In this document: positions 21,326 through 58,885 of the stretch, piece after piece
Numbering within the stretch: position 1 is the first letter of the stretch
Layout of the letters: the number at the start of each line of letters is the position of its first letter
NCBI RefSeq assembly: GCF_932294415.1
Contig: NC_065535.1
Location: 28,056,782-28,120,781 of the forward strand
Reading direction: 5' to 3'
Source of the DNA: Quercus robur
Lineage: Eukaryota; Streptophyta; Magnoliopsida; Fagales; Fagaceae
Length of the DNA: 64,000 nt
Translations under genes and position numbers: made by a program
The notes under the pieces: model-generated
What the model was told of the DNA's origin: nothing
Database searches by the model: none
What the model saw: the letters and a program-made list of their open reading frames with translations, nothing else

Positions 21326-21809
21326 GAATTGCAAATCGTCAATCTTTGTAAGTGCGTCCAGATGAAGCTGAGTTTTTGTCCGTGTCTCTGCAAATATAGT
21401 AAGATGGCTCCCTTGAGATGGTCACCAGTGTGGTGCCTACCACAACACCTCCAATACCAAAATTAGTATAAGGAAGCTTTTAAAGAATAACACAGAATAT
21501 CAGAATAACTATGAGTGCTTTTTAGGTGTGTCTATATACCTGGTTTGTCTCTAATCAAAGTATATATATACAGTTTCATGGTTCCTAGTTGTTGGAGGCC
21601 TTAATTGTGGCTTTAGTGCCCTTTTTGTAACGCCTCAGGGTTCATGAATATGGGTTTTGATGAGGCCCCAACGGCCTGCCTACTATTTGATAACTAATCG
21701 AGGTATTAAATGCTTTAATTAATGGCTCTCCTGTGTTCATCCATGTCGCGTCGAGGTGGACGAGTATATTTGGCGAGATCGTCCAAGGAAGTTAAACTCG
21801 TCAGTCCCA
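21326..21809 (-). repeat. 3' LTR of element B
   Basis: It is a direct repeat of 32862-33347. Its inner edge (21810 on) reads TTGGCTGCCCCCC, the reverse complement of a polypurine tract, as expected beside a 3' LTR of a minus-strand element. A TATATATAC box lies near 21560 on the minus strand. Confidence 0.85.
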
Positions 21810-22344
21810 TTGGCTGCCCCCCAGGTTCTGTGGTTGTCATAATGTGCTATGATGACCATCAAAAGGTGAAAGGTTTTCTGACCTGGACATGGCTTTTGGG
21901 ATTTTGCTCCACATTTAATGCATGGTGGTGGCGCCACACCCATCGTGGCCACGTGGCGTATTCTGATTAATGGAGTTAATACTCCAATTGTGTAACTCTT
22001 GAATTTCCCGTTGGATTTCAGTTTTTGTGCCTTGGTTTTAAAACTTCTCTTCTTTTCACTTTCCCTTTCACTTTCTCCAACTCTCAATCATTGCTCTGAG
22101 CCTTTTCTTCTCCAACCTTTCTCTGCGATTCTTCTCAGAGCTGGTGTGTGGCTGAGCTTTCTACATTTTTCTTTTGAGGTATGCTTTTCTTCCTTCTTTC
22201 TACTTCTTTTTTCTTTTTGGTGTAGATATAAACTATGATAAATTTCTGATTTTCTCTCCTTTTTTGTGTTTGTTTTTGGTTTTCGAGGTTTTTAGTATTC
22301 ATCTATTTCCCTCTGTTTTCTTTTTAGTTTTCATGGTCAATAGC
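21810..22344 (+). promoter_or_regulatory. Probable antisense promoter and leader next to the 3' LTR of element B
   Basis: This stretch lies between the polypurine tract of element B and the inserted element A. On the plus strand (antisense to element B) it looks like a plant leader: C/T-rich (22045-22130), then a possible donor (GAGGTATGC, about 22176) and a T-rich stretch ending TTTTTAG before an ATG at 22333. Element C has an antisense ORF region with a TATA box in the same relative place, so I read this as the matching start region in B. Inference; no transcript evidence. Confidence 0.4.
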
Positions 22345-23301
22345 TCTGAGGTTAGGGTAGTGATGGAGATCAAGGCACCGCTTCGAAGGATCTCGTTCAA
22401 GTACCAATTGGGTCGGTTACAAGAGCACGAGCAAAGAAGTTCAAGGATGTACTCAACGGACTCATCCAAGAGTTATGGGCTCAAGCAAACTCATGGAGGC
22501 CCGTTGAGCATGATCCACGTGGGCAACAAAAAATCGTCACCTTGATTCAAGTTCTAGAAGGATCCGGTCAATGCTAAGAGTTGGCATGAAATATTTTGGG
22601 TCTATGTAAAAAATGTTATTCTAGGTTTAAGTGATTTATTTCCTTGTTTTTAGGTGCATTTAATGCTTTTTAGGTCAAACTTTATTCCTAATATGGTTAG
22701 GTATCAATTAGGAGTTATTTTAGAATATATTTTCTTGTCTGTCAAGTTTTAAGGAGCCCTTAAATAGTTATCTAAGTCTGTAAACGTTTTTCATATATTT
22801 TTTGATAAAAACTTGTGAGGTTTATTCTCTTTGGTTCTTTGAAGAACTACTCGAACTTATCGGGAATTCCCGTGGCGTTCATCTCGACTTATCAAACGGA
22901 GTTTCCACCACCGTTTGTGGCGTCTTTCTTATACCGAGGTTCTTGTTTGTCATAAACAACAGGTCGAGGTCTCCTATTTGAATCTGTCCATAGAACGATC
23001 TTGGGTTCCCTTTCGTTGTTGGGTCTCGTTATTCTTGATGGAGTTCACATCATTTGGTATCAGAGCAAGGTTTCTAGTTCAGGTTTGCTTATCCTTTAAC
23101 ATATTTATCTCTTCTTAGCCGAATTTCCTTTACCCTATCTGTTCAATCTTTGTTTGTCTTGTTGATGTCTAAACTATTGGTCTGGTCTCACATCTCTTAG
23201 TTATTTCGAAATCTTATTTCATTATTCTCTCATATAAAAAAAAATAAAAAAATAAAAAAAAGAGAGAGAGACTCGAAGAAGAAGACAAAAAGGAGTCTAA
23301 A

Positions 23302-23340
<39 letters not shown>

Positions 23341-23637
23341 CTATTCTGTGCTTCCAAAATTCCAAAACTGCCATATTCCTTCTAATTCTAATCTGAAAAT
23401 TTCCATATTCCTTACGTTCAAATTTGAGATTCCTTGATTAGTTCTTGGTGAATTGTTACTGGAAATTTTGAGTTGTTTGTTTAGTTTCAAAAGAATTGAA
23501 AGAGAATTATCAAGTGGAAAAAGGCAATAGTGGTGAGAACATCAGAGGGTAAAAGCCATATTATTTTGAGTGAAACACGAGTGGAGAGTGATCCACATTC
23601 TTGAGTGTAAACACGTAAGGGAGTGATTTGTGAGGTT

Positions 23638-23686
<49 letters not shown>

Positions 23687-26600
23687 CTTCTAACCTTTGT
23701 TTTGCAGCAATCATGTCTCACGATAGTGGTAAGAGCATTGCCGAAAATGATACAAAATTGGCTGATCCGAAAGCGTTTTTGGAGGCCATGATGAGTGAGA
23801 TGAGGCATGTGATGAAGATAGAGATGATGCAAGTTCACGAACGGATAGATCAAATGGAGAATAGACGTGAGGAGCAACCACAAAACGGTCGTAATTTGCG
23901 TAGAAGGGAAAGAGTTCCACCGAGGGAGGAGGATGAAGAGCGTTATGGGTCTGGTTTTGATGAAGAAGAAGATCGGGATTCCATTGTTAGCAATAGGAGA
24001 CCTGGAGGAAGATTTAAAGAAGCTAGGAATTGCGAAGATAACAACTTGGGTGGTATTAAGATGAAGATTCCGTCTTTTCAAGGTAGGTCTGATCCTGAGG
24101 CATATCTTGAGTGGGAGAAGAAGATGGAGTTCGTGTTTGATTACCACAATTACTCCGAGGCAAAGAAGGTAAAATTAGCTGTGATTGAATTTTCTGAATA
24201 TGCTATTACTTGGTGGGATCAGCTTGTGATAAACAGGAGGCAGAACAAAGAACACCCAATAGACACATGGGAGGAGATGAAAGTAGTGATGAGAAAGCGA
24301 TTCATTCCAAGTTACTACTACCGAGAGTTGTACAAAAAGCTACAAGGTTTTAGACAAGGGAGTCGAAGCGTAGAGGACTACTACAAGGAGATGGAGATTG
24401 CTATGATCCGCGTTAATGTAGAGGAGGATCGGGAGGCTACAATGGCTAGATTTTTGCTTGGCTTAAATCGGGAGATCTATGATAAGGTAGAGATGCAGCA
24501 TTATGTGGAATTGGAAGATGTGGTGCATATGGCTATTAAAGTGGAACAATAACTCAAGAGAGGGAATGGGACACATGCAAGCCATAACTCTAGTTCTACC
24601 TCTTGGAAATCGAGTCATGCTAAGCCGCTGGACAAGTCACAAACGCCCAAACTCGAGCCTAAATCCTTGACCACCAGCCACGTTCCTCAAGGTAAAACTG
24701 AAGCCTCTACCTCTAGGAATCGTGATATTAAATGTTTTAGATGTCAAGGCAGGGGCCACATAGCAAGTCAATGTCCAAACAAGCAACTCATGGTGTTGTA
24801 AGCCAATGGTGAAATTGTGACCGATGATGAAGATTCCGACACCGACGACATGCCGCCATTAGAGGATGTTTCCGAGGAGGAGTATTTAGCCCCTGGCGCA
24901 TTGACATTGGTGGCGAGGAGAGCATTGAGCTTGCAAGCAAAAGGAGTTGATGAAATATAGCGGGAGAACATCTTTCACACTAGGTGCTACGTTAAAGACA
25001 AGGTATGTAGTATGATTATTGATGATGGTAGTTGTACTAATGTTGCAAGCACAATTATGGTGGAGAATTTGGGATTGCCCATGGTAAAGCACCCTAGACC
25101 GTACAAGTTGCAATGGCTAAATGATAGTAGTGAGATCAGGGTGAACAAGCAAGTGTTAGTTGCATTTCGAATCGGTAAATACGAAGATGAAGTGTTGTGT
25201 GATGTAGTACCGATGCAAGCGGGACACTTATTGCTAGGGCGTCCATGGCAGTTCGATAGGCAAGTAAAGCATGATGGCTTTACGAACAAGTACTCTTTTG
25301 TACTTAATCAACGATCAATCACTCTTATACCATTGACATTGCAGCAAGTATACGAGGATCAAGTAAGATTACAAAAGAAGAGTGATCAAAAGAAAGAGAG
25401 TGAGCAAAAGAAAAAGAGTGAAAATCAGAAAGAGGCCAAGAAAAATGAGGGAGAAAAAGAAAATCAAAGTTCGGCCCTTGAGAGAAAATCAGAGAGAAAA
25501 CAAAAGAATTTCTATGCAAAAGTGAGTGAGATCAAGCGAGCAATGTTTTCAAATAAGCCGATGATTGTACTTTTGTTCAAAGAGGCACTTTTAAACACTA
25601 ACAAACTTGACCTTACTTTGCCTAGTTCTATTATTTCTCTTTTGCAGGAGTACGAGGATGTCTTCCCCGAGGAAACACCATATGGGTTACCTTTAATCTG
25701 AGGGATTGAACATCAAATTGATTTTGTTCCCGGTGAAACCATTCTAAACCGACTAGCTTATAGGAGCAATCTCGAGGAGACAAAGGAGCTTCAACGGTAG
25801 GTAAGTGAATTGTTGGAGAAAGGGCACTTGAGGGAGAGCATGAGCCCATGTGCAGTTCCGGTCTTACCTGTACCTAAGAAGGATGGGACATGGAGAATGT
25901 GCATTGATTGCCGAGCCATCAACAACATAACGGTAAAGTATCATCATCCTATCCCACGCTTAGATGATATGTTAGATGAGCTGCATGGTTCTTGCATATT
26001 TTCTAAGATTGATTTAAAAAATGGTTATCATCAAATTAGGATAAAAGAAGAAGATGAATGGAAAACCGTCTTTAAAACAAAATATAGTTTGTATGAATGG
26101 TTAGTTATGCCTTTTGGTTTGACTAATACTCTGAGCACCTTTATGAGACTTATGACCATGTTTCATGTGCATTTATAGGCAAATTTGTTGTTGTCTATTT
26201 TGATGATATACTCATTTATAGCAAAAACATAGACGATCATGTAGTACATTTGAAATCCATTTTAGATGTGCTAAGGAAAGAAAGGTTGTTTGCTAATTTA
26301 AAGAAGTGCACTTTTTTCACCAATAAGTTTTTATTTTTGGGATTTGTTGTTAGTGCACAAGGTATAAAGGTTGATGAAGAGAAGGTACGTGCAATCCAAG
26401 ATTGGTCGAGTCCCACAAGTGTAGGTAATGTTCATAGTTTTCATGGACTTGCTAGTTTCTACCGGCGGTTCGTGAAAGACTTCAATAGCTTAGCCGCACC
26501 GCTTACCGAAGTGATCAAGAAGAACATTGGATTTCGGTGGGGAGAAGAACAAAAGAAGGCATTTCAATTAATTAAAGAGAAGCTGACTAACGCACCTTTG

Positions 26601-27254
26601 TTGTCTTTGCTCAACTTTTTTAAAACGTTTAAAATTGAATGTGATGCTTCAGGTATTGGTATAGGAGCCGTTCTTATACAAGAAGGACGACCAATTGCTT
26701 ACTTCAGCGAGAAACTCAGCGGGGCACCTTAAACTATCCAACTTATGACAAGGAGTTGTATGCATTGGTTCGGGCTTTAGAGACGTGGCAGCACTACCTA
26801 TGGCCTAAGGAGTTCGTGATTCACACCGATCATGAGTCCTTGAAACACTTGAAAGGCCAACACAAGCTAAACAAAAGGCATGCGCGATGGGTGGAGTTCA
26901 TAGAGACATTTCCATACGTCATTCAGTACAAGCAAGGTAAGAAGAATGTAGTCGCCAATGCACTTTCTCACAGGTATGCCTTACTCTCCACACTTGATGC
27001 AAAATTGCTTGGTTTTGAACATATTAAAGAATTATATGCTGAAGACCACGAATTTTGTGAGGAATATCGAGCTTGTGAGAAAACCGCCTCTGGTAAGTTC
27101 TTTAAACTTGATGGATTCCTATTTCGAGAAAATAAGTTATGCGTACCTAATTGTTCTATGAGGGAGTTATTAGTGCAAGAATCACATGGTGGGGGATTAA
27201 TGGGACATTTTGGAGTTGCAAAGACTTTAGCTATTTTGCAGGAACACTTCTATT
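22345..27254 (+). mobile_element. Ty3/gypsy LTR retrotransposon fragment (element A), nested in element B
   Basis: The order on the plus strand is unusual. The last part of a gypsy pol reading frame (about 22376-22560, with TRARAKKFKDVLNGLIQELW) precedes an LTR (about 22565-23052). Then come the primer site TGGTATCAGAGC at 23055 (initiator-Met tRNA type), gag from 23713 with a CCHC knuckle (CFRCQGRGHIASQC, about 24733), protease (about 25000, IIDDGSCTNVA), RT (about 25850-26250), RNase H (about 26640-26980) and the start of integrase (about 27150). It stops at about 27254 against the tandem array of element B and has no 3' LTR. It is broken by about half a dozen interruptions. A 48-T tract lies just before gag. 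Confidence 0.8.
22565..23052 (+). repeat. LTR of element A (only one copy in the window)
   Basis: It ends ...TTCACATCA directly before TTTGGTATCAGAGC. The left edge is approximate because no second LTR is present for comparison; a TG at about 22573 is the likeliest start. Confidence 0.6.
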
Positions 27255-27570
27255 ACTTAGCCAATTTTATGTTTGACTTACACCCAAGGGATCTCGTCAT
27301 TTTTGGCTTTGTCAGTAACTTATATCCGTCTAGGTAGAATCTTGTTACTTAGCCAATTTTATGTTTGACTTACACCCATTTAAGGAATATTGTCATTTTT
27401 GGCTTCATCAGTAACTTACATCCATCTAGGCTGAATTTTATTACTTAACCAATTTTATGTTTGACTTACATCTATTAAAAGATCTTGTCATTTTTGGCTT
27501 CGTCAGTAACTTATATTCGTCTAAGCGGAAACTTGTTACATAGCCAATTTTATGTTTGACTTTTAAGTTG
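27255..27570. repeat. About 95-bp tandem repeat (3.3 units) in the 3' region of element B
   Basis: Units start with TTACTTAGCCAATTTTATGT-like sequence near 27253, 27345, 27440 and 27536. They share TTTGACTTACA, TTTTTGGCTTCGTCAGTAAC and CCGTCTAGG. In element B orientation they lie directly downstream of integrase, a place where Tat/Ogre-group elements are known to hold variable tandem repeats. Confidence 0.85.
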
Positions 27571-30500
27571 CTAGGTTCGCTTACATTAAGACATTGGCTG
27601 AAAGGTTTTTTTATTACTTTCAAGAATGAATACAATCATTTGTTACATCTATTGGTGGTACTTCTTCAAGTGCTCAATGTTCCATGGTTGTGGAAGCCTC
27701 TGTCCGTCTAAGGTCTCCAGGTGGTAACTGCCTTGTTTGGAGTAATGGACAACCCAGTACGGTTCTTCCCAGGTTGGGCCAAGTTTCCCTTAGGCAGGGT
27801 TCTTAGTTGTCGGGGTGACTTTAAGTAGGACAAAGTCTCCTATGTCAAGTCGTCTGAGCTTCACTCTCTTGTTGTAATAATCGGTCATCTTTTGCTGGTA
27901 CTTCGTCATCTTGTTAGAGGCTCCATCTTTGACTTCGTCCAGGCAGTCCAGGTTGACTCTTAATTGGTCGTCATTGCTGTCCTCATGGAACATCTCTCGT
28001 TTGATACTACTCATTCCCACTTTGACCGGGATTACTGCCTCAGTGCCGTAAGTGAGTTTGAAGGGGGTTTCTCCTGTTACGATTCTTGTTGTGGTCTTGT
28101 AAGCCCACAAGGCATTGGGCAATCCTTCTGGCCAGGCCCCCTTAGCGTCATCCAACCTGGCTTTGATAATCTTGAGTAGTGTTCGATTAGTTATCTCTGT
28201 CTGTCCATTTGCCTGTAGATGTCCCGCAGATAAGAACTGGTTCTTGATCCCCAGACTTGAACAAAATTCCCTAAAGCCCTGATTGTCGAATTGCTATCCA
28301 TTATCTGATATGATTGTCTGTGGAATTCCGAACTTGCAAATTATGTTCTTCCATGGATTCTTGCTTCGGTGATAGTTACTAATGCCTTCGCTTCAACCCA
28401 TTTTGTGAAGTAATCAATATTGACTAGTAGAGACTTTACTTGTCATTTACCTTAGGGCAACGAATCAACGACGTCGATTCCCCATTGTGCAAATGGCCAA
28501 GGGGAGGCTATCGTCGTCAGTCTCTCGGCTGGAAGGCGTTAGACATTCCCAAACCTCTGGCACTTATTGCACTTCTTAACGAGCTCCTTTCTGTCTACTT
28601 GCATAGTAGGTCAAAAGTAACCTATTCTGACAACTTTACTTACCAAGGATCTGGGGCCTGCATGGTCTCTGCAAACCCCTTCATGAATCTCTTCTAGAAT
28701 ATACTTGGCTTCCTCTTCATCTACGCACTTCAGGTAGGGCATGGAAAAGCCTCTCTTGTACAGGGTGTCATTCAGGATCGTGAATTTGGCTGCTCTCTTC
28801 CTAACCTTTTTGGCCTCCTTGACATCTTGTGGGAGGTGTCCGTCTTAGAGGAATGATATGATCGGGGTCATCCAGCTACCTATGCTCTGGATTGTAAATG
28901 TAGAGAATTCTTCAATGCTAGGGCACTTTTGAACTTCCATCTCCGAGTCCATGCTCGTTGATCCTTCTTCTGAGGATGCTAGCTTCGCAATTTCGTCTGC
29001 TATCATGTTTTGGCTCCTGGGAATCTGCACAAATTCCACCCTATCAAACTCCTATGTCAAATGCTTCGTCAACCTGTGGTATTTTTGCATTCTTTCGACC
29101 TTTGCTTCATACTCCTTCTTTATTTGCCCTATTACCAGCTTAGAATCACTTTAGAGGAGTAACTTTTTAGCTCCTAGAGCTTTTCCGACCCTTGGCCCCA
29201 TCAATATTCCTTCGTACTCGGCTTCATTATTGGTGACCGAGAAATTTAGTTGAACTCCATATTTAAGCATTTCTCCATCTTGGGTGGTGGTGACGACCCT
29301 TACTCCTCCCTTTTTTGGGCTAACAAACCATCGGTTTATATCATCCACTGCTCTGTCTCATCGGTAGGGCTATCCTCGTCTAGAAGAGTGAACTCAGCGA
29401 TGAAGTCTGCCAAAGCCTACGCCTTAATGGTTGTCCTAGGGTGGTACTCGATGTCGAACTGGCTAAGCTCGATCACCCATTAGACCATTCTCCCTGTTGC
29501 CTCGGGCTTGTTCATGGACTTCTTGATGGGTTGATCTGTCATTACCAAGATAGGGTTCGCCTGAAAATAAGGTCACAGCTTGCGCGAAGCTACTATCAGC
29601 ACAAACGTAATCTTCTCAATCCTTGGGTCCTTGGCTTCTGCCGCTTGGAAAGCTTGGCTAACGTAGTAAACTGTGAGCTTTTTTTTGTCCTCTTCTCAAA
29701 CCAAGGCTGCACTCACAGCAATAGCTAAGACTACCAGATACAAATACAAATTTTCCCCCTCTTTGGACGGACTTAGAAGGGGTGGATTGCTTAGGTAGTG
29801 TTTGAGCTCTTGAAAAGCTATCTCACATTCATCAGTCCAAGCAAAAGCTTGCTTCAACGTCTTAAAGAAGGGTAAGCATTTATCCGTCACTCTAGAGACA
29901 AACCTGTTAAGTGCTGCTATCCTTCCTGTGAGCTTTTGAACTTCCTTGACGGTCTTTGGTGATGTCATATCGAGTATGGCTCGCACCTTTTCTAGGTTTG
30001 CCTCTATCCCCCTTTGGGACACCATGAACCCCAAGAACTTCCCCGAGGCTACTCTAAACGCACACTTACTGGGATTCAACTTCATTTGGTATTGCTTGAG
30101 TGTCTCGAATGTTTCTCTGAGGTCGTCCAGGTGAGCAAGCTCTTCTTTACTCTTGACGAGCATGTCATCCATATATACCTCTATATTTCTCCCGATCTGC
30201 TTGCTGAACATTTCACTAACCTCTAGTAAGTTACTCCTGCATTTTTCAATCTGAAGGGCATTACCTTATAGCAATAGAGCCCTTGGCTTATGATGAAAGC
30301 AGTTTTCTCCTGGTCTTCTTCAGCCATCTTTATCTGATTGTATCTCGAGAATGCATCCATGAACGTCAGTAATTTATTCCCTGTTGTGGAATCTACTAGC
30401 TGGTCTATCCTTGGTAGAGGGAAACTGTCTTTTGGGCAGACTTTATTCAAGTCTGTGAAATCTATACACATCCTCCATTTTCCATTTGCTTTCTTCACTA

Positions 30501-32861
30501 GGACGACATTGGCGAGCCAATCTGGGTAGTAGACTTCTCGAATAAAACCTGCTGTCAGCAGCCTGTTAACCTCATTTGTAATTGCTTGATTCCGTTTTGA
30601 AGCGAAGACCCGTCGTCTCTACTGGATGGGTTTCTTCTCGGGGTCCACATTTAAGTTGTGTTGGATAACCTTCGTGGATAAACCTGGCATATCCTCGTGA
30701 CTTCATGCGAAGACGTCTAAGTTCTCTTTAAGGAATTGGACGAGTCTCATCCTCATCTTGGGACTCTGTCGTCCCTATTCTAGTCATCCTTATTCTAGTC
30801 GTCCTTGTTGTTTCTCCTTTAACCAGCTCCATTGTCTCTAGGGCTTTCAATTTATTTTCTTCCTTCTCCTCTATCATCCATGTATGGTTTTTTTGGCAGC
30901 TAGCATGGCCTGGTAGCATTCCCTGGCCAATACTTAATCTCTTTTTACCTCGCCCACACCGTTCTCTGTTGGAAACTTTACCTTCAAGCAGTAAGTGGAC
31001 ATGGCTACTTTCCAACAGTTGAGCATGGGTTTCCCGATGATCACATTGTAAGATGAAGGACAGTCTACCACCAAGAAGTCCAATTGATGAGTCAGTTGCC
31101 TCGGGTGAGTCCCCACTATAACCATCACTGTTACTATGCCCTTGGGATATACCCTGTCTCCACTATAGCTGACGAGGGGGGAGTCAAATAGGTGAAACCT
31201 TCCTGGATCTAGTTTCAACTGCTAAAAAGTGGAGAGGTAGATGATGTCTATAGAGCTGCCATTGTCCATGAGGATTCTCTTGGTATAAAATCCTTCTATC
31301 GTGAGCATTATGACTAGGGGGTCGTCATGAGGCTGCTTCACTCCTCTAGCATCCTCTTCCAAGAAAAACATGTCACATCTATCCGTCTTTGCTTAAATGG
31401 GGGCATCCTGTGGACACTGTTCACCTGCCTCTAGCATGCTTTCCTGAGGGATTTGAATGACCTACCTGTGATCGTCTTTATCTCCCTAATCACACTTGGT
31501 GGGCGCTAGGACGTGTGATCCTCGTCACTAGGTGAAGATTCGCGCTGGTTTTTGTTGTCACCTCTGAATCTACTAGATTCCCCATTTTTCACATACTTCT
31601 ATAGTTTTCCTTTCCGTATAAGCTCCTCTATTTGCTCCTTTAGGTCCCTGCAATCCTCTGTGTAGTGGTCGTGATCCTTGTGAAACCGGTAGTACTTCTT
31701 TTTGTCACGCACGTTGGGTGACGAATGTAATGGCCTTGGCCATTTAAGGTAGTGCTCATCCTTAATCTACAACAAAATTTTGTCAACAGGCATAACTAAA
31801 GGAGTGAATTTTACCGCTCAAGGAGTTTTTTCGTCTTTCCTTTTACTCCCATCACTAGTTCGATGATATGGATGCTCCCTTTTTCGTCCTCTGCGATCAT
31901 CCTACTTCTTTCCCTTGTCTCCTAGCTTTTCCATGTCCTTTATGGCGACTAACGCATCTTCAACATTCATGTACTTCTGTGCCTTTAGGAGCATCTCTGC
32001 CATCATCTTAGGAGGATTCTTCGCGAGTGAAACCATGAACTCTTTGGACTTCAACCTCGCTTTAAAGGTCGTCAACTACATCTTATCGTTAGCTTCGTCT
32101 ACCTCCAAAATCTCCCGAGTAAAGCATTTTACGTACGACCTCAGGGTTTCTTTTTCCTCGTCTAATGGTGAGTAAATGGTCTACTGGCCTATTAGGGCGT
32201 TGTCCCCCGATGAAATGGTGCAAAAAGGTGTTGCTCAACTGCTCAAAGTTGTCGATAGATGATGTTGGTAACTTTGTGAACCACTCCTTTGCAGCTCCTT
32301 TGAGAGTGGTGGGGAAGGAACGACACAGTATTTTGTCAGGAGGCTGTTAAAGGCCTAGTGTCATCTCAAAGGTGTTGAGGTAGTCCTAGGGGTCTTTAAG
32401 TCCGTCAAATGGCTCAAGCTGAGGCAATTGAAATTTTGATAGCAAAGGGCATTACAAGATTGTCGTGATGAAGGGCGAATCTATTGCCCTGACCATTCTA
32501 TCCAGGCTTCGATCTATTTTCCCCTTAATGGCATTCTTCAGCTTGTCCATCTCCTTTCTCATCTCCCGGAGAAGATCTGAGTTTTGTTTATCTAGGGTAG
32601 TTAGTCCTCGACGGTTGCTCCTTTTATGGCTATCTCCCTCATCCTCTTGATTGGCTCTAGACCAGTTCTCCTCCTATTGAAGTCGTAGCCTCATTTCCTA
32701 ATTCTGTCTAGTGAGCTCTTCAATGCTAGCCGCAAGAGCCTGGACTTGCAGAGCTAATGTTGCAAAATCCTGGTTGGACTCCATCTGAATGTAGAAATTA
32801 ATTGGAAACTACGCTTTCAAACTTAAGTACAAAAATGTCGTCCCCACAGACGGCGCCAAAC

Positions 32862-33347
32862 TGATTAAGTGCAAATCATCAGTCTTTGTAAGTGCATCTA
32901 GATGGGGCTGAGACCTCGTCTGTGTCTCTACAAATATAGTGAGATGGCTCCCTCGAGATGGTCACTGATGTGGTGCCTGCCACAACGCCTTCAATGCCAA
33001 AGTTAGTATAAGAAAGCCTTTAAAGAATAACACAGAATATCAAAGTAACTACGAGTGCTTTTTAGGTGTGTCTATGTACCTGGTTTGTCTCTAATCAAAG
33101 TGTATATATACAGCTTCATGGTTCCTAGCCGTTGGAGGCCTTAATTGTGGCTTTAGTGCCCTTTTTGTAACGCCTCAAGATTCATGAATATGGGTTTTGA
33201 TGAGGCCCCAATAGCCTACCTACTGTTTGATAACTGATCAAGGCATTGAATGCTTTAATTAATGACTCTCCTGTGTTCGTCCGTGTCGCATCGAGGTGGA
33301 CAAGTATATTTAGCGAGATCGTCTTGGGAAGTTGAACTCGTCAATCC
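32862..33347 (-). repeat. 5' LTR of element B
   Basis: It is the direct repeat partner of 21326-21809. The reverse complement of TGGCGCCGTCTGTGGGGA lies just inside it. About 54 differences to its partner were counted by eye, nearly all of them transitions. Confidence 0.85.
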
Positions 33348-34187
33348 CATCAATTTACTCAAAGACGATGAGTTGATGATCTTTTTACCCACGTCTTTTC
33401 CATCGTAACAAATTTTTTAGTGACATGTGTTTCATCAAAAAATTAAACATCTACAATTTCAAAATATGGACACAAATTTAACCCAATTTGAATTTGAAAT
33501 TAATGAAATATGACCATTTGAAGTTCAACACAAATGTGCATCTCCAAGAGTTTGATTGACTCTTTACTCAATTCTCGTTCAAGCGAATTGCGACAATTTT
33601 ATCTTTGATTTTCTCTTTTTGAATTTAACCATTTGTCTAAGATTTTTTAAGTTTCCACTTTTTTGTATTAGTTCAATTACTTCTCACAACCTTTAACTTT
33701 TACCATCATTCTTTGTTGCTTGGAGGATATTCCTAGTCAATAAGGTAGGGGAAAATCGGAAAAAGAGTGGGTGGGGGAACCTTAGTGCATATTCCTCTCA
33801 TTCTATTCTTAAAGTAAAAAATTATTGAATCCCAATTTGCACAACAGGCTGAAAAATCACTTCTAGTCGATCAATTAAAGCATCTGATTCTTTTTTACTC
33901 CTTGCCAGGCTATGAATAATGAACTTCAGGAAAACAGTAGGATTAGGGCTTGGTGGGAGCATATCCCTCATGAGAGATTGAGCGGTACTAGAATAAAGGC
34001 GCTCTCCCTATCCGGTCAACTTCATTCAAGAAAAAGGAAAGTTAGTTTTCAGTCAAGAATTTTATGCCCAGAAGACCAAAATAGAAGGTATAGTTTAATA
34101 AAATCAAGAATTTATTGATCTTCTTACACAAATATGATTCCTAAATACAATTAAGAAAAAAATCAAGCAAACAAAGAACAATGGGAT
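33348..34187. other. Intergenic; one unassigned ORF
   Basis: A 68-codon plus-strand ORF at 33912-34118 (starts MNNELQENSRIRAWWEHIPH) has balanced, non-repetitive composition but matches nothing I recognise. The remainder is AT-rich with no gene signal. Confidence 0.35.
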
Positions 34188-48222: not shown

Positions 48223-48688
48223 TGTACGGCACCAAGGTCCTAAGACCCAGATGGGCCCTGGGCTTAGGCCCAATAGCACAACCCCATCGCCAATGCACGG
48301 CACCGAGGTCCCAAGACCCAGATGGGCCCTGGGCTCAGGCCCAATAGCACGGCCCCATTGCCCTAAGCTCTACTTGAAACTGCCTTCAAAGAATACGAGT
48401 TTTGGGCCTCGGCTCCTGAACTATGCTTGGCATAAAGCTTCCCGAACGGTCAGTGAAACCTTGTCCGGGCGTACCATAGGATGCTCGGGGAACATCACTA
48501 CCGAGCAAATTCACCTGAGTTGGAGCCAAGTTCCAAGGCCATAATCGTTACACTCCACTCTCACCTAAACATCCACTTATAACAGATAATATTGGACCTC
48601 CAATTGCACTAACAATGGCAGTAATTATGATCTCCCCACTAACTTAAAGCTATAAATAGAAGAAGTTGGGGAAGAAGAAAGGGTTCAG

Positions 48689-48719
<31 letters not shown>

Positions 48720-48863
48720 AGTCATTTAGAGAAAGGGGAGGAACATTATTTTGAGTCTCTGTACCGAGAACGACCCAAAGTAGGAAATCTTGAAGCCCAC
48801 TTTACAAATAAATTATGAGCCTAAGTGAGGTTGAGCCCAACAGTCTCATTTCAGGTTGGCACA
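48223..48863 (+). repeat. 5' LTR of element C
   Basis: It starts TGTACGGCACCAAGG and ends TTGGCACA. It is 641 bp, against 558 bp for the 3' LTR. The extra length is a tandem 71-bp duplication of its first bases (units at 48223 and 48294) plus a longer A-tract near 48689-48718. The TATA box TATAAATAG is at 48651. Confidence 0.9.
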
Positions 48864-51800
48864 ATTGGCGCCCACCGTGGGACTCTCCTACGAAGCTGTG
48901 GTTCGACTGAGGCTCAAATAAGAGAAATGTCCGAGGGACATTCGGGAGGGCGTGCTCAGAGCGGTTCCGTGGGATCTTCTCGGGGATCCACGTGGCGGGA
49001 AAGAAGACAGAAAGGGCGCGAGGACAGGGAGCGCCTACGAAGAGAGGAAGAGTCTGGCTTGGGAGAAGGGTCGGATCAGACCCGCCGAACGGTGTCGGGT
49101 GTCTCGAGACACAGGCAGTATGATGATAGAGACCGAGAGCTAAAGCGGTTGCGCAGACTGGTGATGGATCTAGAACTGGAAGCAAGGGGTCGACGCCAAG
49201 AAAGGGACCACCACCACCAGCAAAGGAGAAATGATAGCACGGGAAATCACGGCGAAGAGGGCTCTAGCCAATCCGGTACACAACGATTCCAAAACCGATC
49301 ACCCTCTCAAGAATCACACCGGCGTAGGAATCAGTCACACTCCCGAGAGACACGTCATCGACGAAGCCGTTCACGTTCACATGGATATGAGGACCGAAGG
49401 TCGGATTCGCCAGAAGAACGGCGACCCTACAATGCTGCCATGGACGCCATGAACCGAGCCTTACAAAGGGCTGCTCAGTTGCCATTCTCAGATGAAATTG
49501 AACGGGCCCCTATGCCGAGTAGATTTACAAGACCGCCATTCAATTCCTACGACGGGAAGACGGACCCTGTGGAGTATGTCAGTCATTTTATCCACATGAT
49601 GTCCTTGCATGCACACAATGATGCCTTGATGTGTAAGGTATTCCCTTCCAGTCTCGGCTCCACGGCCCTGAGATAGTTCAATGGGTTACGAAAAGGCTCC
49701 ATTCGTAGCTTTGCCGAGCTGATTCAAGAGTTCGGCAGTAGATTCATGACATGTAGCCGAGTGTCGCAGCCGATGGATGCGTTACTTTCCATAAAGATGA
49801 GGGTCGGTGAAACCCTTCGGAGTTACGCCAGCCGGTACTGGGAACTCTACAACGAGATCGATGGAGGAAATGAGAAGATAGCGGCAAGCACCTTCAGGAT
49901 AGGGCTCCCCAAAGATTCTGAATTACGGGAGTCGTTGACGAAAAGACCTCTCGAGGATATGAGGCAACTTATGAGGCGCATTGAGGAGTATAAACGCCTG
50001 GAAGATGATCGGCTACAAAATAAGGGGAAAGCCCCATTACTAGGGAGATCTCGGCAGGGCGTTATCCCGACAAGACCAAAAAAAGATTTCAGGATGCAAG
50101 AACCAAAGGCGCAAATTGAGGGAGTTATTGTGGCGTTCAAAGAACCTATGCACAAAATTCTAGATCGGATTAAGAATGAATCATTCTTCAGGTGGCCGAA
50201 CAAAATGGGGGGTGACCCATCTCGGAGGAACCAAAACTTGTATTGCACATACCATAAGGACAAAGGGCATACCACCGAGCAGTGTCGGGTACTAAAAGAT
50301 CATCTCGGGCAATTAGTAAAAGTAGGGTATCTGAAAGAGTTTGTAGTGGACTCCGCAAACCGGGATACCGGCCAGGGTGTTCAGCAAAAAAGGAATCCCC
50401 TCCCACCACCGCTGGGAGTGATCGAAGTCATCCACGCTGCCCCAAGGGTACAGCAGCAGCTAAAGGGGTACTGACAGTGGCTTGCACGGAAGGAGAATCA
50501 CCCGAGAAGAGGATGAAAGTTGGTTGGCTAACCATCTCTTTCGGTGAAGAAGACTTAGAAGGGACGATCCAACCTCATGATGATGCGTTGGTAGTAACAG
50601 CTCGGATAAGCGGGTTCTTGGTAAAAAGAGTGATGATAGACCAAGGAAGCGGAGTCGATGTGATGTACCTGGATCTGTTCGAAGGGCTCGGATTGAAGAG
50701 TCAGGACTTAGCGAAGTATAACACGCCACTGGTCTCGTTTGACGGAAGGGTCGTGGTTCCCGAAGGGCAAATTTCTCTCTCGGTGGACATGGAAGGCAAG
50801 GAAGTAATAGTGACCTTCATAGTAGTCCGGTCATTCTCACCGTACACTGCAATCTTGGGAAGGCCGTGGATCCACGCAATGAAGGCCGTTCCGTCCACCC
50901 TGCACGTGAAAGTGAAATTTCCCACCAAGTATGGAGTCGTCGTGGTGCGAGGGAACCAACGAGTGGCTAGGCAGTGTCTGGTCGCCACGGTCAGATGGAA
51001 GAGCGAACAGCTTGGACAAGCGGGGGAGACCGAAAAAGAAACTTTATAGCAATCACAGAAGCCTTGAGGGGAAACGGGGGCAGACGTTGCCGAGGAGGTT
51101 TTAAAGGTCAGAATTTTTCCGGACAATGACAGGTATTTCCAGATAGGAACGAGCATGAACAACCGAGAAAAGGTAGAAATGTTGTTGTTCCTTTTACAGA
51201 ACGTGGATGTCTTTGCCCGGAGTCCGTACGAAGTTCCCGGCGTAGATCCCGAGTTCATTGTCCACAAGCTTAACGTGGACCCATCATTCCCCCCGAAAAA
51301 ACAAAAACCGAGGAGAGCATCGAAGGAGCATGTTGACGCGGTGAACTTGGAAGTCCAGAGGCTAAAGGAAGCAGGGGTGATAAGGGAAATATTCTTCCCG
51401 AGGTGGTTAGCGAATACGGTGGTGGTGAAGAAAAAGAATAGTAAATGGAGAGTTTGTGTGGATTTCACAGACTTGAATAGGGCATGTCCCAAGGATCCAT
51501 TTCCAATGCCCAAGATTGACCAACTAGTAGACGCCACGTATGGGCACCCGAGGATGAGCTTCTTGGATGCTTTCCAGGGGTACCACCAGATTGCCTTGGC
51601 ACCCGAGGACCGAGAAAAGACAGCATTTATTTCCCCGAGTGCAAACTATCACTACGAAGTCATGCCGTTTGGATTGAAGAACGCCGATGCCACATACCAG
51701 CAGATGATGACGAGGATGTTCCGAGAGAAAATTGGGTGCACAGTGGAGGAATACATTGACGACGTGGTGGTAAAGAGCAAAAAGGAGTCGCAACATACGA

Positions 51801-54465
51801 AAGACCTCCAGGGAGTATTTGAGATACTCTGGCAGCACAAGTTGCGCTTGAACGCCGAGAAGTGTACTTTCGGTATGGGGGCTAGCAAGTTCTTGGGTTA
51901 TCTGATTTCTACTCGGGGGATAGAAGCCAATCCCGACCAGATAGATGTCGTGAGCCGCCTCAGACCGCCGAGCAATCCAAAGGAAGAACAAGTGCTAACC
52001 GAGATGTTAGCTGCCCTAAACCGATTCATCTCCAAATTCGCAGATCGCTGCAAACCGTTTTATCAACTTCTGAAGAGGTGGAAGGGGTTTCATTGGGACA
52101 AGGAATGCGACAAGGCCTTTCGAGAATTGAAGGAATAATTGGCAAAAGCACCAATGTTAACGGCCCCGGAGTCCGGGGAGGATTTGTTTATGTACCTCTC
52201 AGTGTCTGACCATGCCGTGAGTGCTATGTTACTAAGGGACCAAGGAGTACAGCAGCCAATGTATTACATAAGCAAAACCTTAGTAGATGCCGAGGCCAGG
52301 TACCTGCCCCTTGAGAAGCTAGTTTTGGCACTGGTGCACGCCACGAGGAAGTTGCCGCATTACTTTCAGGCTCATACGGTATTCGTCCTCACCGAGTATC
52401 CCCTGCAGTCGTTGTTAAAAAGATCGGACTTCACGGGCCAAATAGCCAAATGGGGAACTCGTTTGGGTTCGTTCAACATAAGGTACTGACCGCGAAGCTC
52501 GGTAAAGGGATAGGTTCTTGCTGATTTCATTGCAGAATTCACCCCTAAGAACGACGGGAAGATAATTTGTAATGCGAAACGTCGTCCGTGGAAAGTGTTT
52601 GTAGACGGCGCTTCAAATGCTATGGGGGCCGGAGCTGGTATTGTCATAATCACCCCGGAAGGCATACGATTAGAACACTTCTTCAGATTAGGATTCAAAG
52701 CCTCAAACAACGAAGCCGAGTACGAGGCCTTCTTGGTTAGGTGGAGGGCCGTATTGCGTTTGGGCGCGAAAGATGTTGAGATTTATTCGGACTCTCGGCT
52801 AGTCGTTTATCAAATCATAGGAAGCTTTGAAGCTCGGGACTCTCGGATGAAAGCCTATCTGAGTATAGCTAAGCAGATCATTGGCCGGTTCAGGACAGTG
52901 AAGGTAGCCCAGGTAGGTTGGGCACAAAACAGACATGCCGACTCGCTGGCCACGTTGGCTTCATCCTCTACCGAGAATATACCTCGGCTGGTCAAAATAG
53001 AGCTTATAAGGGAGCCGAGCATCGAGGTGAAAAGTGATGACAACCTGGCCGGGGTTGAGGTTGCCATGGTGTCAATGGCAAATCTGTGCTGGATGAACCC
53101 GATCATAGACTTCCTAGCCAAGGATAAAGTTCCGGATGATGAAAAGGAGGCCAAAAAGATTCGTCGGGTGGCTCCGCGGTACTGGCTGTCGGCAGATCGC
53201 AAATTGTACCAGAGGTCTTTTGCAGGCCCTTACCTTTTATGCCTTCATCCTGAGAAAGTGAACGAACTTCTGACCGAGCTTCATGACGAAGTGTGTGGTG
53301 GCCATGTCAGGGGACGGTCTCTGGCGCACAGGGCAATGACCCAGGGGTTTTGGTGGCCACAGATGCAGAAGGATGCCGCGGAATATGTCCGGAGGTGTGA
53401 ACAATGCCAGAAGCACGCCCCTCTGATCCACCAACCAGCAGGTCGTCTAAACCCCGTCAGCAGCCCATGGCTATTCGCACAATGGGGGCTAGACATCCTC
53501 GGCCCTTTTCCCCGAGCAACGGGTAATCGCCAATTTGTATTGGTGGCAGTGGATTACTTCACGAAGTGGGCGGAAGCCGAGGCCTTAGCCAACATCCGGG
53601 ATGTCGACGTGAAAAAGTTTGTATGGAAAAACATAGTCACAAGGTTTGGGGTACCGAACTCACTAGTATCAGACAATGGGCTACAGTTCGATAGCAAAGC
53701 TTTTCGGGCCTTCTGCAGCAATCTCGGCATTAAGAACAAGTATTCAACCCCGGTATACCCTCAAAGCAACGGCCAAGTTGAGGCAGTGAATAAGACGATT
53801 TTGAACGAGTTGAAGAAGAGGCTGGATGGGGCAAAGGGGAGATAGGTTGAAGAGCTGCCTAATGTTTTATGGGCCTACCGTACGACTCCCAGAATATCCA
53901 CGGGTGAGACCCCTTTCTCTTTGACATATGGGGCGGAGGCTGTAATACCAACCGAGGTGAGCTTGTGCAGTGCACGGGTCGCAGGATTTGACCTTGCCCA
54001 GAACGCCGACCTGATGATAGAGCGCTTGGACTGGTTAGAAGAATGCCAGGAGGCCGCAACCATACGGCTCGCGGAGTATCAGCAGAAACTGTCCCAGAGA
54101 TACAACCAAGATGTAAAGGGGAGGGAATTCAACGCCGGGGAATTGGTGCTAGGGAGGGTCGTGGGAAACATGCGAGACATAGCTACCGGGAAGCTTGCTC
54201 AAACATGGGAAGGGCCGTACAGAATTACTGCCATCGCTAGCGCGGGGGCTTACTACCTGGAAGATCTTGACGAGAGGCCGCTCCCTCGGCCATGGAATGC
54301 TCACAATTTAAAGAAGTTCTACCCGTGACCATCCATATAGTAAATGTAAGTCAAAACTTTGTACTTTGCAAAAGTCAAGATAATGATGAAGTTACTTGTC
54401 TAAGCTGTTTTCGATCCCGTCATTGCACATTAAGAGAATTGCATGTTTTGTAAAAAAAAAAAAAA

Positions 54466-54910
54466 AAAAAAAATTCTAAGGACAGAAGCCTCATCCTCGG
54501 TTCGATCAAAATCACCGAGCAGGTGGAAACCTTATCGTTAAAAAAAATTTTCTAAGGACAGAAGCCTCATCCTCATCCTCGGTTCGATCAAAATCACCGA
54601 GTGGGTGGAAACCTTATCGTTACAAAAAATTTTCTAAGGACAGAAGCCTCATCCTCGGTTCGATCAAAATCACCGAGCGGGTGGAAACCTTATCGTTACA
54701 AAAAAAATTTCTAAGGACAGAAGCCTCATCCTCGGTTCAATCAAAATCACCGAGCGGGTGGAAACTTTATCGTTACAAAAAAAATTTCTAAGGACAGAAG
54801 CCTCATCCTCGGTTCGATCAAAATCACCGAGCGGGTGGAAACCTTATTGTTACAAAAAATTTTCTAAGGACAAAAGCCTCATCCTCGGTTCGATCAGGTG
54901 GAAACCTTAA
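54466..54910. repeat. About 76-bp tandem repeat (6 units) in the 3' region of element C
   Basis: The unit contains CTAAGGACAGAAGCCTCATC, CTCGGTTCGATCAAAATCAC and GGGTGGAAACCTTATCGTTA. Starts of GACAGAAG lie near 54481, 54557, 54639, 54716, 54792 and 54869. One unit has a small internal CCTCAT duplication and the last is shortened. It begins about 140 bp after integrase ends. Confidence 0.9.
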
Positions 54911-55388
54911 CACCCTTACAAACACTAACTACAATTTCATTCTCGAATTATCCAAACACCGTGCAACAGGTTTTGGGGCATCATGTCATTTACGGTCGGG
55001 GAAACTAAATCCCATTGTTTAAACGCAATGTATTAAGGTATGATCTAACCGAGCAAGTAGCTCTCGGCCCGACCTACTACAAAATAAGAGACCACAAAAA
55101 TAGGTAAAGAAAGGCGGCACAAACATAATCTAAGCAAACACGCAACAAGTCAAGAGCAGAATTAAAAAGCAGAGTTAATATCTCATCGCCAAAACTCGGC
55201 AACCGTTTACGGAAAATCCCCGCGAAATGAGGAAATTGTTCAGTCACCACAACCCGGTGACATAGGCAAATATACCAATAATAAAACAAAATAAATGCTG
55301 TAAAAAAGAAGTAAAAGCATGAAAAGCTGGACGGCAAGTAATTTGATCAGATGGAGGGCCGAGTTGGATCTATCACTTCATGCTGCTG

Positions 55389-57297
55389 TTAGCCAGTCAC
55401 GGGAAAATGCAGGTCCTCACCGAGTAAGTCTTGCACAGTTGGGATGCTGGTGGCTTCTGTCTCATCCGGCTCTACATAAGCATCAATTTGTTCCACCAAC
55501 TCCCTCATGCTTGTCGTTTCTTCCTCCTCAACAGGCACCGTTGGGTCCTGCGCGGCAACAACAGGGCTCGGGAAAGGAATCTGGCCGGGGTCTCTCAGCG
55601 GGGAATCCTCGGGAACACCACCGGGCCTCAAAACCCAACCTCCGAGCTTGGGACACCACCGGTTCCGCAGATTTCTCGGTGTCCGCGAACCCCTCATTGT
55701 ACCACTTTTGCTCGCAGGCCTCCAAGGCTGCCCTCAGGTCAGTGAGTTCCTTGGCTTGAGAGGTAGTGAGGCTAATGGCTTCTGCTAGCTTCACATCTGT
55801 TTCGTTCTGCTTAGCCAAGAGCTCAGAGCATCTCTTCTCCGCCAGCGCCCTATTCTTCTCCGCGGCAACAGCCTTTTTCTCGGCAGATTCAGCTACCTTT
55901 AGTTTTTCTTTTGCTGTTTTGGCAGCTGACTCCCGCGCCCCCTTTTCACGATCAACTTCCTCGGCAAGATCCCTTGCACGGCCAGCCAATATGTGAGCCA
56001 GTTGAGCAGCCTGACAAACACAGAAGTTAGTATGGAAGTGAAAAGGAATGTACGGAAAGTAAAAGACAAACAAGGAGTTACCGCAATAGCATGCCACTCT
56101 AACCGGCAGCCCACAGACTCCTCCGACCCTTCCCCGAAGGCATGCACGTCGTCGGGAAGGAGAAGACCCTCGGCCAGGGTTTGGGCAATACGCCCGCCTT
56201 CACCTTTCTCCCACATCCGCACACAGGCGGTTGAAGGCAAAGGCTTGCCGTCCAGTAAAAATTTGGGCTTCCACGCTGGAGCAGTTTGAGAGGAGGACGC
56301 AACCCCCGGACCGACCTAGGTCTGCGGCTCGTGGATAACGATACCCCCTGTTGGCCGGGGAGGAGTCTGGACAGTAGAATCTCCCGGACCCGTAAATGGT
56401 TGATCGGCAACCCTTTGTTTTTTCCGGGCTCGTCCAGCTTGAGAAGGGGGTGGAGGGGGAGGCACCTGGACCTGACCTTGAGAAGGTGGAGGCTAGGAGG
56501 GTTGCCGTGAACCGGGCACGAATACCTCAAAACGGAGGATAAAGTTCAAGTCTTTTACGTGGACTGTTCTGATGTCCGGAACGAAGACCTTGTCGTCTGT
56601 AAAAAAAACAACAAATGTTATATCAATATCCGATAACCAAAATCTACTTCAGTAAAGAGGGAAGCGAAGGAAAAGGGGGGGGGGGGGAAGAACGGTTAGA
56701 TCAAGGGATCGGTACAAACCCATTTCATGCCGTGAAAGAGGGCAGGGGACCTCCCTGGCAAACCAGTTGCCGCGCACCCGGACAAACTCCCCGGCAGAAT
56801 TCCTATTCGAATCAGGTAGGCATGATATCAGCCGTACCCGATTATCTCTAGTTTTTAAGTAAAAGTTGGAAGCTTTGTTCCCACAGAGGCTATACATATG
56901 GTTAATATCATGATAATCTAACTGTAAATCAAAGGTATGGTTCAACCTACTAACGCAGCTAACTACCCGATAAAAGTTGGGGGGAAGCTGGTCGGGACAC
57001 AGCCCGTAGTACCTAAGTGTGTTTATCAAAAGTGGATCCACGGGGAACCTAACCCCACCCTCAAGAATTGCCATTAAAGGGAAAAAGGCCGTACCATGCC
57101 CTCGGTGGAGAGCGATTTCACTCTCGTGGCAATAAGCCACTTCCACGTCATCAGGAATATTAAACTTGCGCCTAAAGGTGGCCAAGGCTGTCGGGGCCTC
57201 TAAGAGATAAGAGTAACCCATCTATGATACTTAATGCTATGAAAAGGAACTCGAAGAAATAAGCTGAAGGAATAGGAAGGGGAAGAGAACTTACTTT
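55389..57297 (-). mobile_element. Antisense ORF region of element C
   Basis: Several open segments lie on the strand opposite gag-pol. The 57221-56649 segment (MGYSYLLEAPTALATFRRKF) has FNIPDDVEVAYCHESEI, GTAFFPLMAILEGGVRFPVD and LPPNFYRVVSCVSRLN. This resembles the 'putative gypsy-type transposon' domain (Pfam Transposase_28) known from antisense ORFs of plant Tat-type elements. The 56097-55528 segment is Ala/Lys/Glu-rich and looks like a coiled coil (AKEKLKVAESAEKKAVAAEK). It is part of the fossil element and no function is established. Grande-type elements of maize also carry an antisense gene here. Confidence 0.65.
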
Positions 57298-57415
57298 GGG
57301 TTCTAAGGGAGAAAGGAACTCTGGGCTGGTGAGTAAGCGCACAAGAAAGTGGTCGGCAGAGAGTATGCTCAAGAGATCAAAGGTGGAAAAAGTGAAAGAA
57401 TGTTCTGAGGAAAGG

Positions 57416-57423
57416 TATTTATA
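57416..57423 (-). promoter_or_regulatory. TATA box for the antisense ORF region of element C
   Basis: TATAAATA on the minus strand, preceded by GATCC and followed by a C/T-rich stretch (CCTTTCCTCAG), lies about 195 bp before the ATG of the antisense segment at 57221. A donor-like CCAAAGTAAGTTC follows at about 57297. Its placement suggests an internal promoter facing into the element, away from the 3' LTR. Inference from sequence only. Confidence 0.5.
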
Positions 57424-57712
57424 GGATCAGAAAGAGGCATGGGAGCGTTAAATAAAGCAATAAATGGGCACGATTCACGAACGACCCTGCGAATGCCAAA
57501 GCTAATCGACACGCGCGTCGCTTCGGCTTGCGAACCGTCAGGCAATAATGACAATCTGAACCTAACGCCCCGGAACAGCGCGTCTTTTGAGAAGAGCATT
57601 AATGAGAAGCCGAAACCGAATAAGTCCCTGACCATAGGACTTTCGAGACTAGAAGGCTCGGCTGGCTCCTTGATGCTTCCCGGTAACCGGATATGAATCA
57701 AGGGGGGGCTAA

Positions 57713-58270
57713 TGTACGGCACCAAGGTCCCAAGACCCAGATGGGCCCTGGGCTCAGGCCCAATAGCACGGCCCCATTGCCCTAAGCTCTGCTTGAAACT
57801 ACCTTCAAAGAATACGAGTTTTGGGCCTCGGCTCCTGAACTATGCTCGGCATAGAGCTTCCCGAACGGTTGTGAAACCTTGTCCGGGCATACCATAGGAT
57901 GCCCGGGGAACATCACTACCGAGCAAATTCACCTGAGTTGGAGCCAAGTTCCAAGGCCATAATCATTACACTCCACTCTCACCTAAACATTCACTTATAA
58001 CAGATAATATTGGACCTCCAATTGCACTAACAATGGCAATAATTATGATCTCTCCACTAACTTAAAGCTATAAATAGAAGAAGTTGGGGAAGAAGAAGGG
58101 GTTCAGAAAAAAAAAAGAGAAAAAACAGTCATTTAGAGAGAGGGGAGGAACATTATTTTGAGTGTCTGTGCCGAGAACGACCCAAAGTAGGAAATCTTGA
58201 AGCCCACTTTACAAATAAATTGTGAGCCTAAGTGAGGTTGAGCCCAACAGTCTCATTTCAGGTTGGCACA
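57713..58270 (+). repeat. 3' LTR of element C
   Basis: It begins TGTACGGCACCAAGG and ends TTGGCACA, with TATAAATAG near 58069. It lacks the 71-bp duplication seen in the 5' LTR. The polypurine tract ends 3-4 bases before it. Confidence 0.92.
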
Positions 58271-58312
58271 TATATATATTTATATATATATATATATATC
58301 ATATTATATATA

Positions 58313-58800
58313 ATAAAAGTTGGGCTTAGACGTCGTGGTTGCACCAAGTGGCTTCACCAAATTGCAGAAATTTTAATAAAATTTTAGATTTTAAGAATAG
58401 ATATATACATATTTTTTGGATAAATATGACAAATCAAGTAATGAAAGAAAATAGTATTTCATTTACAACTATAATAGTTGTGTCTATCTAAAATGTTATC
58501 AACAAAGTCTAAAATCAATAAAATAAAATTACGGATAGAATTTAAATAAAAAATAAAGATAAATAAAAGTTGGGTTTAGACGCCGTGGTTGCATCAAGTG
58601 GCTTCACCAAATTGTAGAAATTTTAATAAAATTTTAGATTTTAAAAATAGATATATACATATTTTTTGGATAAATATGACAAATCAAGTAATGAAAGAAA
58701 GTAGTATTTCATTTACAACTATAATAGTTGTCAACAAAGCCTAAAATCAATAAAATAAAATTACCTAAGGATAGAATTTAAACAAAAAAAGAGAGATAAA
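58313..58800. repeat. Tandem duplication of about 245 bp at the left end of the Helitron-like element
   Basis: The block ATAAAAGTTGGGCTTAGACG through GATAGAATTTAAA is present twice, from about 58313 and about 58563. The copies share AAGTGGCTTCACCAAATTG, GATATATACATATTTTTTGG and AAATATGACAAATCAAGTAA. They differ by a few substitutions and one short deletion (TGTCTATCTAAAATGTTA missing from the second copy). Confidence 0.85.
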
Positions 58801-58885
58801 AAAATGTAAAAGAAAAAAAAAATCGAATTTGCATTTTTTTTTTTCATACGTCTCTTTAAAAAATGTAAAAGGAAAAAAAATATAA

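Follow-up and report, generated by a model that had tools for sequence, protein, structure and literature searches.

The question raised by this 64,000-nucleotide stretch of Quercus robur DNA (the window; NC_065535.1, positions 28,056,782 to 28,120,781) is whether the open segments that lie opposite gag-pol in one of its retrotransposons, here called element C, belong to a gene with a promoter of its own, as a preliminary description had proposed, or whether they arose in some other way. The reading favored here, to which we assign a probability of roughly 0.6, is that the locus holds a decayed copy of the antisense accessory gene of a Retand-type element, a gene that would have possessed its own TATA promoter, three introns, and a product of about 700 residues with a nuclear regulatory role.

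Judging from its domain order, its antisense TRP28 (Transposase_28) unit, and the length of its pol-3' LTR region, element C is a Retand-type (Tat, Ty3/gypsy) LTR retrotransposon. Pfam searches returned RVT_1, RT_RNaseH, RVT_3, and then the integrase zinc-binding and core domains (RT_RNaseH at 52139-52486; RVT_3, Integrase_H2C2, and rve within 52514-53842), along with a gag match slightly below its cutoff. According to the portions of the literature available, a second RNase H between RNase H and integrase is the mark of Ogre/Retand elements (PMC6317226), an antisense TRP28 ORF is characteristic of Retand, and the Retand pol-3' LTR region measures 2,933-6,566 bp (PMC11963269). Element C possesses the second RNase H, carries an antisense TRP28 ORF between pol and the 3' LTR, and has a pol-3' LTR region of 3,384 bp (54329-57712); these features agree with the original assignment to a Tat-type element. 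Its LTRs align alike in 542 of 575 columns (12 are gap columns) and differ by 21 substitutions over 563 sites, or ~3.7%. As gag-pol is split over several frames and pieces, the element itself is dead. Two repeats were also observed at its margins, namely a 71-bp tandem duplication (48226-48362) that opens the 5' LTR and is missing from the 3' LTR, and a 250-bp unit in a tandem pair (58312-58803, 84% matches) directly outside the 3' LTR.

Table 1. Coordinates of element C and of its predicted antisense gene in the window
Feature	Position	Strand	Remarks
5' LTR	48223..48863	+	sense TATAAATA at 48651; 71-bp duplication at start
gag-pol, several broken pieces	48825..54328	+	order RT, RNase H, second RNase H (RVT_3), integrase
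Tandem array, 77-bp unit, 5.6 copies	54465..54896	+	
3' LTR	57713..58270	+	sense TATAAATA at 58069
Antisense TATA box TATAAATA	57416..57423	-	exact in 38/40 copies
Predicted start-site motif TTCTTTCA	57393..57400	-	start site inferred from sequence
Leader exon 1, untranslated, C/T-rich	57295..57393	-	inferred from signals
Leader intron 1, 58 nt	57237..57294	-	GT and AG in 40/40 copies; 58 nt in 37/40
Exon 2, ATG at 57221, TRP28 domain	56720..57236	-	ATG in 37/40 copies
Intron 2, phase 1	56597..56719	-	GT..AG in 35/40 copies
Exon 3, proline-rich with putative basic patch	56082..56596	-	this copy: two in-frame stops, 432-nt deletion at 56516/56515
Intron 3, phase 0, TACTAAC at 56032	56011..56081	-	GT..AG in 30/40 copies
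Exon 4, coiled-coil-like stretch and putative acidic tail	55347..56010	-	23-nt frame-breaking deletion near 55617; own stop 55389

The 10-kb element contains three matches to TATAWAWA, one in the sense direction in each LTR and one antisense, the latter situated just inside the 3' LTR, between the LTR and the TRP28 ORF. The last A of TTCTTTCA (57393) falls 30 nt downstream of the first T of this antisense TATA box (57423). Between 57393 and the ATG at 57221, 120 of 175 bases are C or T (the ATG counted), no earlier ATG occurs in this leader, and a splice donor (AAA/GTAAGT) is found at 57294 on the minus strand. The TATA box (57423-57416), the C/T-rich leader, and the donor-like site consequently stand in the order first described.

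Three predicted introns, one in the leader and two in the coding region, would join the segments downstream into a single gene of about 700 codons, a length that follows from a stop shared near 55349 (present in 19 of 19 other copies). The open antisense segments reported earlier between the array and the 3' LTR are indeed present; rather than separate segments, they are better regarded as probable exons that two further introns divide within a single gene, and the end previously placed at 55389 is the window copy's own stop, the family's shared stop lying beyond it. The call of a Transposase_28 domain was upheld, if narrowly, by the PF04195 profile search that had been suggested as its check: the 57221-56649 frame scores 26.4 bits (E=8.2e-6) and the trimmed TRP28 exon 26.7 bits, against a Pfam curated gathering cutoff of 26.2. 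The segment formerly described as coiled-coil-rich (56010-55642) has a 102-residue core with no prolines and 40% D/E/K/R, a composition in keeping with that description; its 3.5-residue periodicity is matched by 123 of 5000 shuffles and therefore lends only modest support. A TACTAAC with YAG after it, as in intron 3, was observed once, against an expectation of 0.048 per shuffled region. The terms branch point, basic patch, and acidic tail represent our reading of the letters.

Other approaches to the gene model and its product were less informative. When codon usage was scored with gag-pol as the training set, exons 2 and 3 gave only a weak indication and exon 4 a clearer one. AlphaFold2 applied to the TRP28 exon alone (171 residues) gave a useless model (pLDDT 33.8), no PDB chain matched at E up to 10, no relative was found in IMG/VR by tblastn, and none of the NCBIfam profiles came near its cutoff. 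On the minus strand between the shared stop and 54328, no AATAAA was found. The leader acceptor first chosen, the proximal one at 57222, was abandoned in favor of the distal acceptor at 57237, as the last base of the former varies among copies while the latter is fixed.

Parts of this arrangement might be produced by random open frames and random motifs. When the region was shuffled with its dinucleotides preserved, a TATAWAWA occurred in 232 of 3000 shuffles and an ORF of 190 aa or more that begins with ATG arose by itself in 13 of 3000, and a stop-free run of 190 codons is reached in 7 of 500; moreover, pol has a 314-aa frame on its opposite strand, and the Pfam score exceeds its cutoff by very little. 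The combination of a TATAWAWA with a first ATG opening at least 150 codons, however, was obtained in none of 3000 dinucleotide shuffles, and chance would predict neither that the intron GT and AG be kept among copies nor that constraint among the 40 copies described below fall in the predicted frame, so that an origin by chance has a negligible probability.

To follow these signals through the family, the genome to which the window belongs (785.7 Mb in 42 contigs) was searched for copies, and of 689 first-look candidates the best 40 were scored; the 40 aligned copies include that of the window, and the copy number is a lower bound. Mean pairwise diversity ranges from 0.096 to 0.172 per region, as opposed to 0.0125 in TATAAATA, and the donor GTAAGT is kept in 38 of the 40 copies. 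The least diverse of 475 8-mers in the 5' region include the TATA box, the donor, and the predicted start site, as well as stretches near 57306 and 57278. Variants carried by at least three copies are absent from 19 sites of the gene model (TATA, donor, distal acceptor, ATG), compared with a presence at 30% of 475 other sites, and singletons occur at these 19 at the usual rate (seven seen; 0.33 per site elsewhere). Random sets of blocks equalled the TATA box, donor, and acceptor in 161 of 20000 draws, a count in which the distal acceptor had been picked after its conservation was seen. Conservation of the TATA box alone is unremarkable, because 1906 of 20000 random 8-base blocks are likewise devoid of a shared variant. 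Together, the sequence and the conservation of the TATA box, the start-site motif, and the leader intron support a promoter proper to the antisense unit and lying upstream of it, in agreement with the independent promoter envisaged at the outset.

Further conserved features were noted upstream of the TATA box. Minus-strand motifs at 57469-57459 and 57552-57541 are among the least diverse of the same 475 8-mers and are possible regulatory sites. A short minus-strand frame (57635-57451) has its ATG (57599) in 37 of 39 copies and its stop (near 57451) in 35 of 40, and is the sole non-coding control to display a synonymous shift (p=0.0019) in the selection test; possibly, it is a small upstream ORF, an earlier exon, or a product of chance.

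In the selection test, singleton variants were taken as mostly post-insertion and variants in at least three copies as mostly dating from the family's spread, and variants in exactly two copies were left out, the comparison resting on the number of copies that carry a variant. In the predicted frame of exons 2 and 3, nonsynonymous:synonymous counts pass from 281:134 among singletons to 274:264 among shared variants (p=2e-7), and within exon 4 as far as the shared stop, in 20 sequences, they pass from 123:68 to 49:88 (p=4e-7). No such fall is seen in the shifted frames (p 0.72 and 0.88 for exons 2 and 3; 0.32 and 0.125 for exon 4). Among 12 non-coding control frames, one falls (p=0.0019, the frame noted above), and the remaining 11 give p values of at least 0.06. 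RT served as a positive control (nine sequences, one spanning only 157 nt, with variants in two or more copies counted as shared) and in frame went from 112:67 to 21:59, one of its shifted frames giving p=0.0009 in the opposite direction. On the same nine copies the antisense gene went from 226:177 to 86:134 (p=6e-5), and this comparison points to a constraint that is likely, albeit weaker than that on RT. Likewise, across the ~606 codons of the shared exon columns, no position holds a stop in the majority of copies; the most frequent one is present in 8 of 37. The protein was thus likely constrained by selection while the family spread. Given that the signals are conserved and that the synonymous excess is frame-specific, with the RT control behaving alike, it is very likely that the antisense unit was a spliced protein gene during that spread, and the suggestion that the element could make a protein from this strand is to that extent supported.

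The same data bear on three other accounts of the locus. One of three sense-strand frames over exons 2 and 3 also falls (p=0.0003), which, together with the position of the region beside the 3' LTR and the two conserved motifs upstream of the TATA box that lie outside the gene model, would suit conserved sites serving the sense strand (in RNA packaging, priming, or LTR function), the antisense signals being coincidental; given that the fall in the predicted antisense frame is the stronger (p=2e-7) and that it is the GT and AG of intron 1 that never vary, this is very improbable. The minus-strand transcript may instead act as RNA, pairing with genomic RNA and either feeding small-RNA silencing or hindering reverse transcription, with the protein secondary. 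Conserved promoter signals among the copies are compatible with such a role, and roles for antisense retroelement RNA are discussed in the accessible parts of PMC7264820 and PMC12786077; yet constraint that tracks the codons of the predicted frame over three coding exons would be needless for RNA pairing, and we regard a primarily RNA-based function as unlikely, while recognizing that RNA and protein roles may operate together. Lastly, the coding sequence might be a passenger of ancient date, acquired from a host gene or from some other transposon and useless to the element, an idea that draws on the constraint being weaker than on RT, on the protein's role being deduced only, and on the absence of any fully open copy among the 40. 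Purifying selection during the spread would be unexpected of a passenger, as would the occurrence of TRP28 in almost every young Retand cluster of flowering plants (PMC11963269), and a captured passenger is accordingly improbable.

The antisense gene of the window copy is dead. It is missing 432 nt of exon 3 at a place where 38 of 39 other copies have letters (33 of them at the two commonest lengths, 18 apart), and it contains two in-frame stops. The frame change at about 55.62 kb proved to be a 23-nt deletion relative to the majority of 19 other copies, most of which retain these bases near 55617, and it breaks the frame. An alternative intron that would bypass both stops, for which an in-frame donor and acceptor were spotted by eye, was rejected, since other copies read through and no stop is found in most copies, so that plain decay suffices. 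Over 57221-55641, every one of the 40 copies has at least one stop or frame-breaking indel. The reading of an antisense accessory gene stands on the domain match, the order of the signals, their conservation among copies, and the frame-specific constraint; ranged against it are the lack of a fully open copy, the GT..AG of intron 3 in only 30 of 40 copies, the missing AATAAA, the weakness of TATA conservation taken alone, the falls in one non-coding control frame and one sense frame, and the lack of TATAWAWA within 900 nt upstream at the 30 other TRP28 loci considered next.

A PF04195 profile search of the same genome yielded 150 scored matches, all above the cutoff, among 4148 candidates, and no match in 14 control genomes. 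The best 30 of these 150 were taken as loci of other TRP28 families; they form seven clusters, none of which joins the element C family at 80% identity over 400 bases. In the element C family the TATA box lies about 350 nt upstream of the TRP28 domain. At the 30 other loci, neither TATAWAWA nor, with all 30 oriented by motif, TATA[AT]A was found within 900 nt upstream of the domain; the TATA layout is therefore family-specific as far as seen. The TATATATG motif recurs near -1200 to -1320 in other TRP28 loci, and TATATA, a palindrome, may there be the LTR's own box. Some other TRP28 genes have in-frame ATGs up to 924 nt upstream of the domain, and farther-out promoters in those families are possible. 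We tentatively propose, at somewhat less than even odds, that the element C family evolved a complete antisense gene, split like those of a host, with a TATA box, an initiator, a leader intron fixed at 58 nt, and two introns in the coding part, and that this own-promoter, intron-bearing version is lineage-specific and so far undescribed.

As we envisage it, RNA polymerase II would start a transcript opposite gag-pol from a TATA-type promoter just inside the 3' LTR, and the antisense orientation would permit expression independent of the LTR. In the family, removal of three introns from this transcript would leave a message for about 700 residues, with the TRP28 domain at the N-terminus, followed by a proline-rich stretch that includes a basic patch, then a coiled coil, and finally an acidic tail. 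Introns would be retained because the genomic RNA being copied carries them reversed and hence unspliced before reverse transcription; a split layout suits an antisense gene for this reason, as introns on the non-genomic strand survive reverse transcription, and intron reporters exploit the converse orientation principle (PMC12786077, in the part available). TRP28 is predicted to bind DNA (PMC11963269, in its available text), and the combination of TRP28, basic patch, and coiled coil fits a self-associating nuclear regulator. Most likely, the protein would enter the nucleus, self-associate, and bind nucleic acid, thereby regulating the transcription or integration of the element, a role for which we draw on the papers about its relatives and on our reading of the sequence.

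Additional elements were observed elsewhere in the window. Another LTR element occupies 21322-33350, with 489-bp direct repeats (21322-21810 and 32862-33350) that are 88.8% identical; its RT lies on the minus strand, plus-strand gypsy-like frames at ~23.6-27.3 kb are apparently nested inside it, and the antisense exons of element C found no match in it. At 8707-9085, a 126-bp unit, equal to 42 codons, is present three times, and long stop-free frames on both strands overlap these copies.

The element C family offers exact predictions, namely one start site, three splice junctions, and one reading frame, and its evolutionary evidence suggests that a protein, beyond antisense RNA alone, was maintained while the element spread. 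Surveys that look for single ORFs would miss or split spliced genes of this sort. The kind of gene is itself already published, both as antisense TRP28 ORFs and as the own-promoter gene23 of Grande, in keeping with the initial remark that antisense ORFs are known in the Tat group (PMC11963269; PMC7264820; both as excerpted). What appears to be new is the intron structure of the predicted spliced gene, the promoter footprint, and the family-wide signs of protein maintenance.

Several known systems, compared here through the portions of the cited papers that were available, place the unit in context. Antisense TRP28 ORFs occur in 97% of young Retand clusters of flowering plants and resemble that of element C in lineage features, antisense orientation, position between pol and the 3' LTR, PF04195 domain, and nearby tandem array (PMC11963269). 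Those units are described as ORFs, whereas the element C family presents a spliced model with a TATA box and a leader intron, conserved among copies; the word "intron" is absent from the text of PMC11963269 at hand, and in the limited literature searched, which is not proof, no description of introns in antisense TRP28 genes was found. The Retand ORF4 of Silene latifolia, likened by description, is also an antisense transposase 28 domain protein, with weak ubiquitous expression reported (Kejnovsky 2006, as cited in PMC7264820). HBZ of HTLV-1 is similar in outline, being an antisense gene close to the 3' terminus of a retroelement and having a nuclear product; the HTLV antisense promoter lies within the 3' LTR, unlike the one predicted for element C, and the likeness carries no claim of homology (PMC11963269; PMC7264820). 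A further parallel is gene23 of maize Grande, an antisense accessory gene of a Retand element, between pol and the 3' LTR, for which ubiquitous antisense transcription from its own promoter and a nuclear product have been reported (Gomez-Orte 2013, as cited in PMC7264820). Element C likewise has an antisense coding unit between pol and the 3' LTR, and its family bears the marks of a protein that was likely maintained by selection, with RT as the control; gene23, to which it is likened by description, is known from its transcription and nuclear localization, and the element C unit from its sequence.
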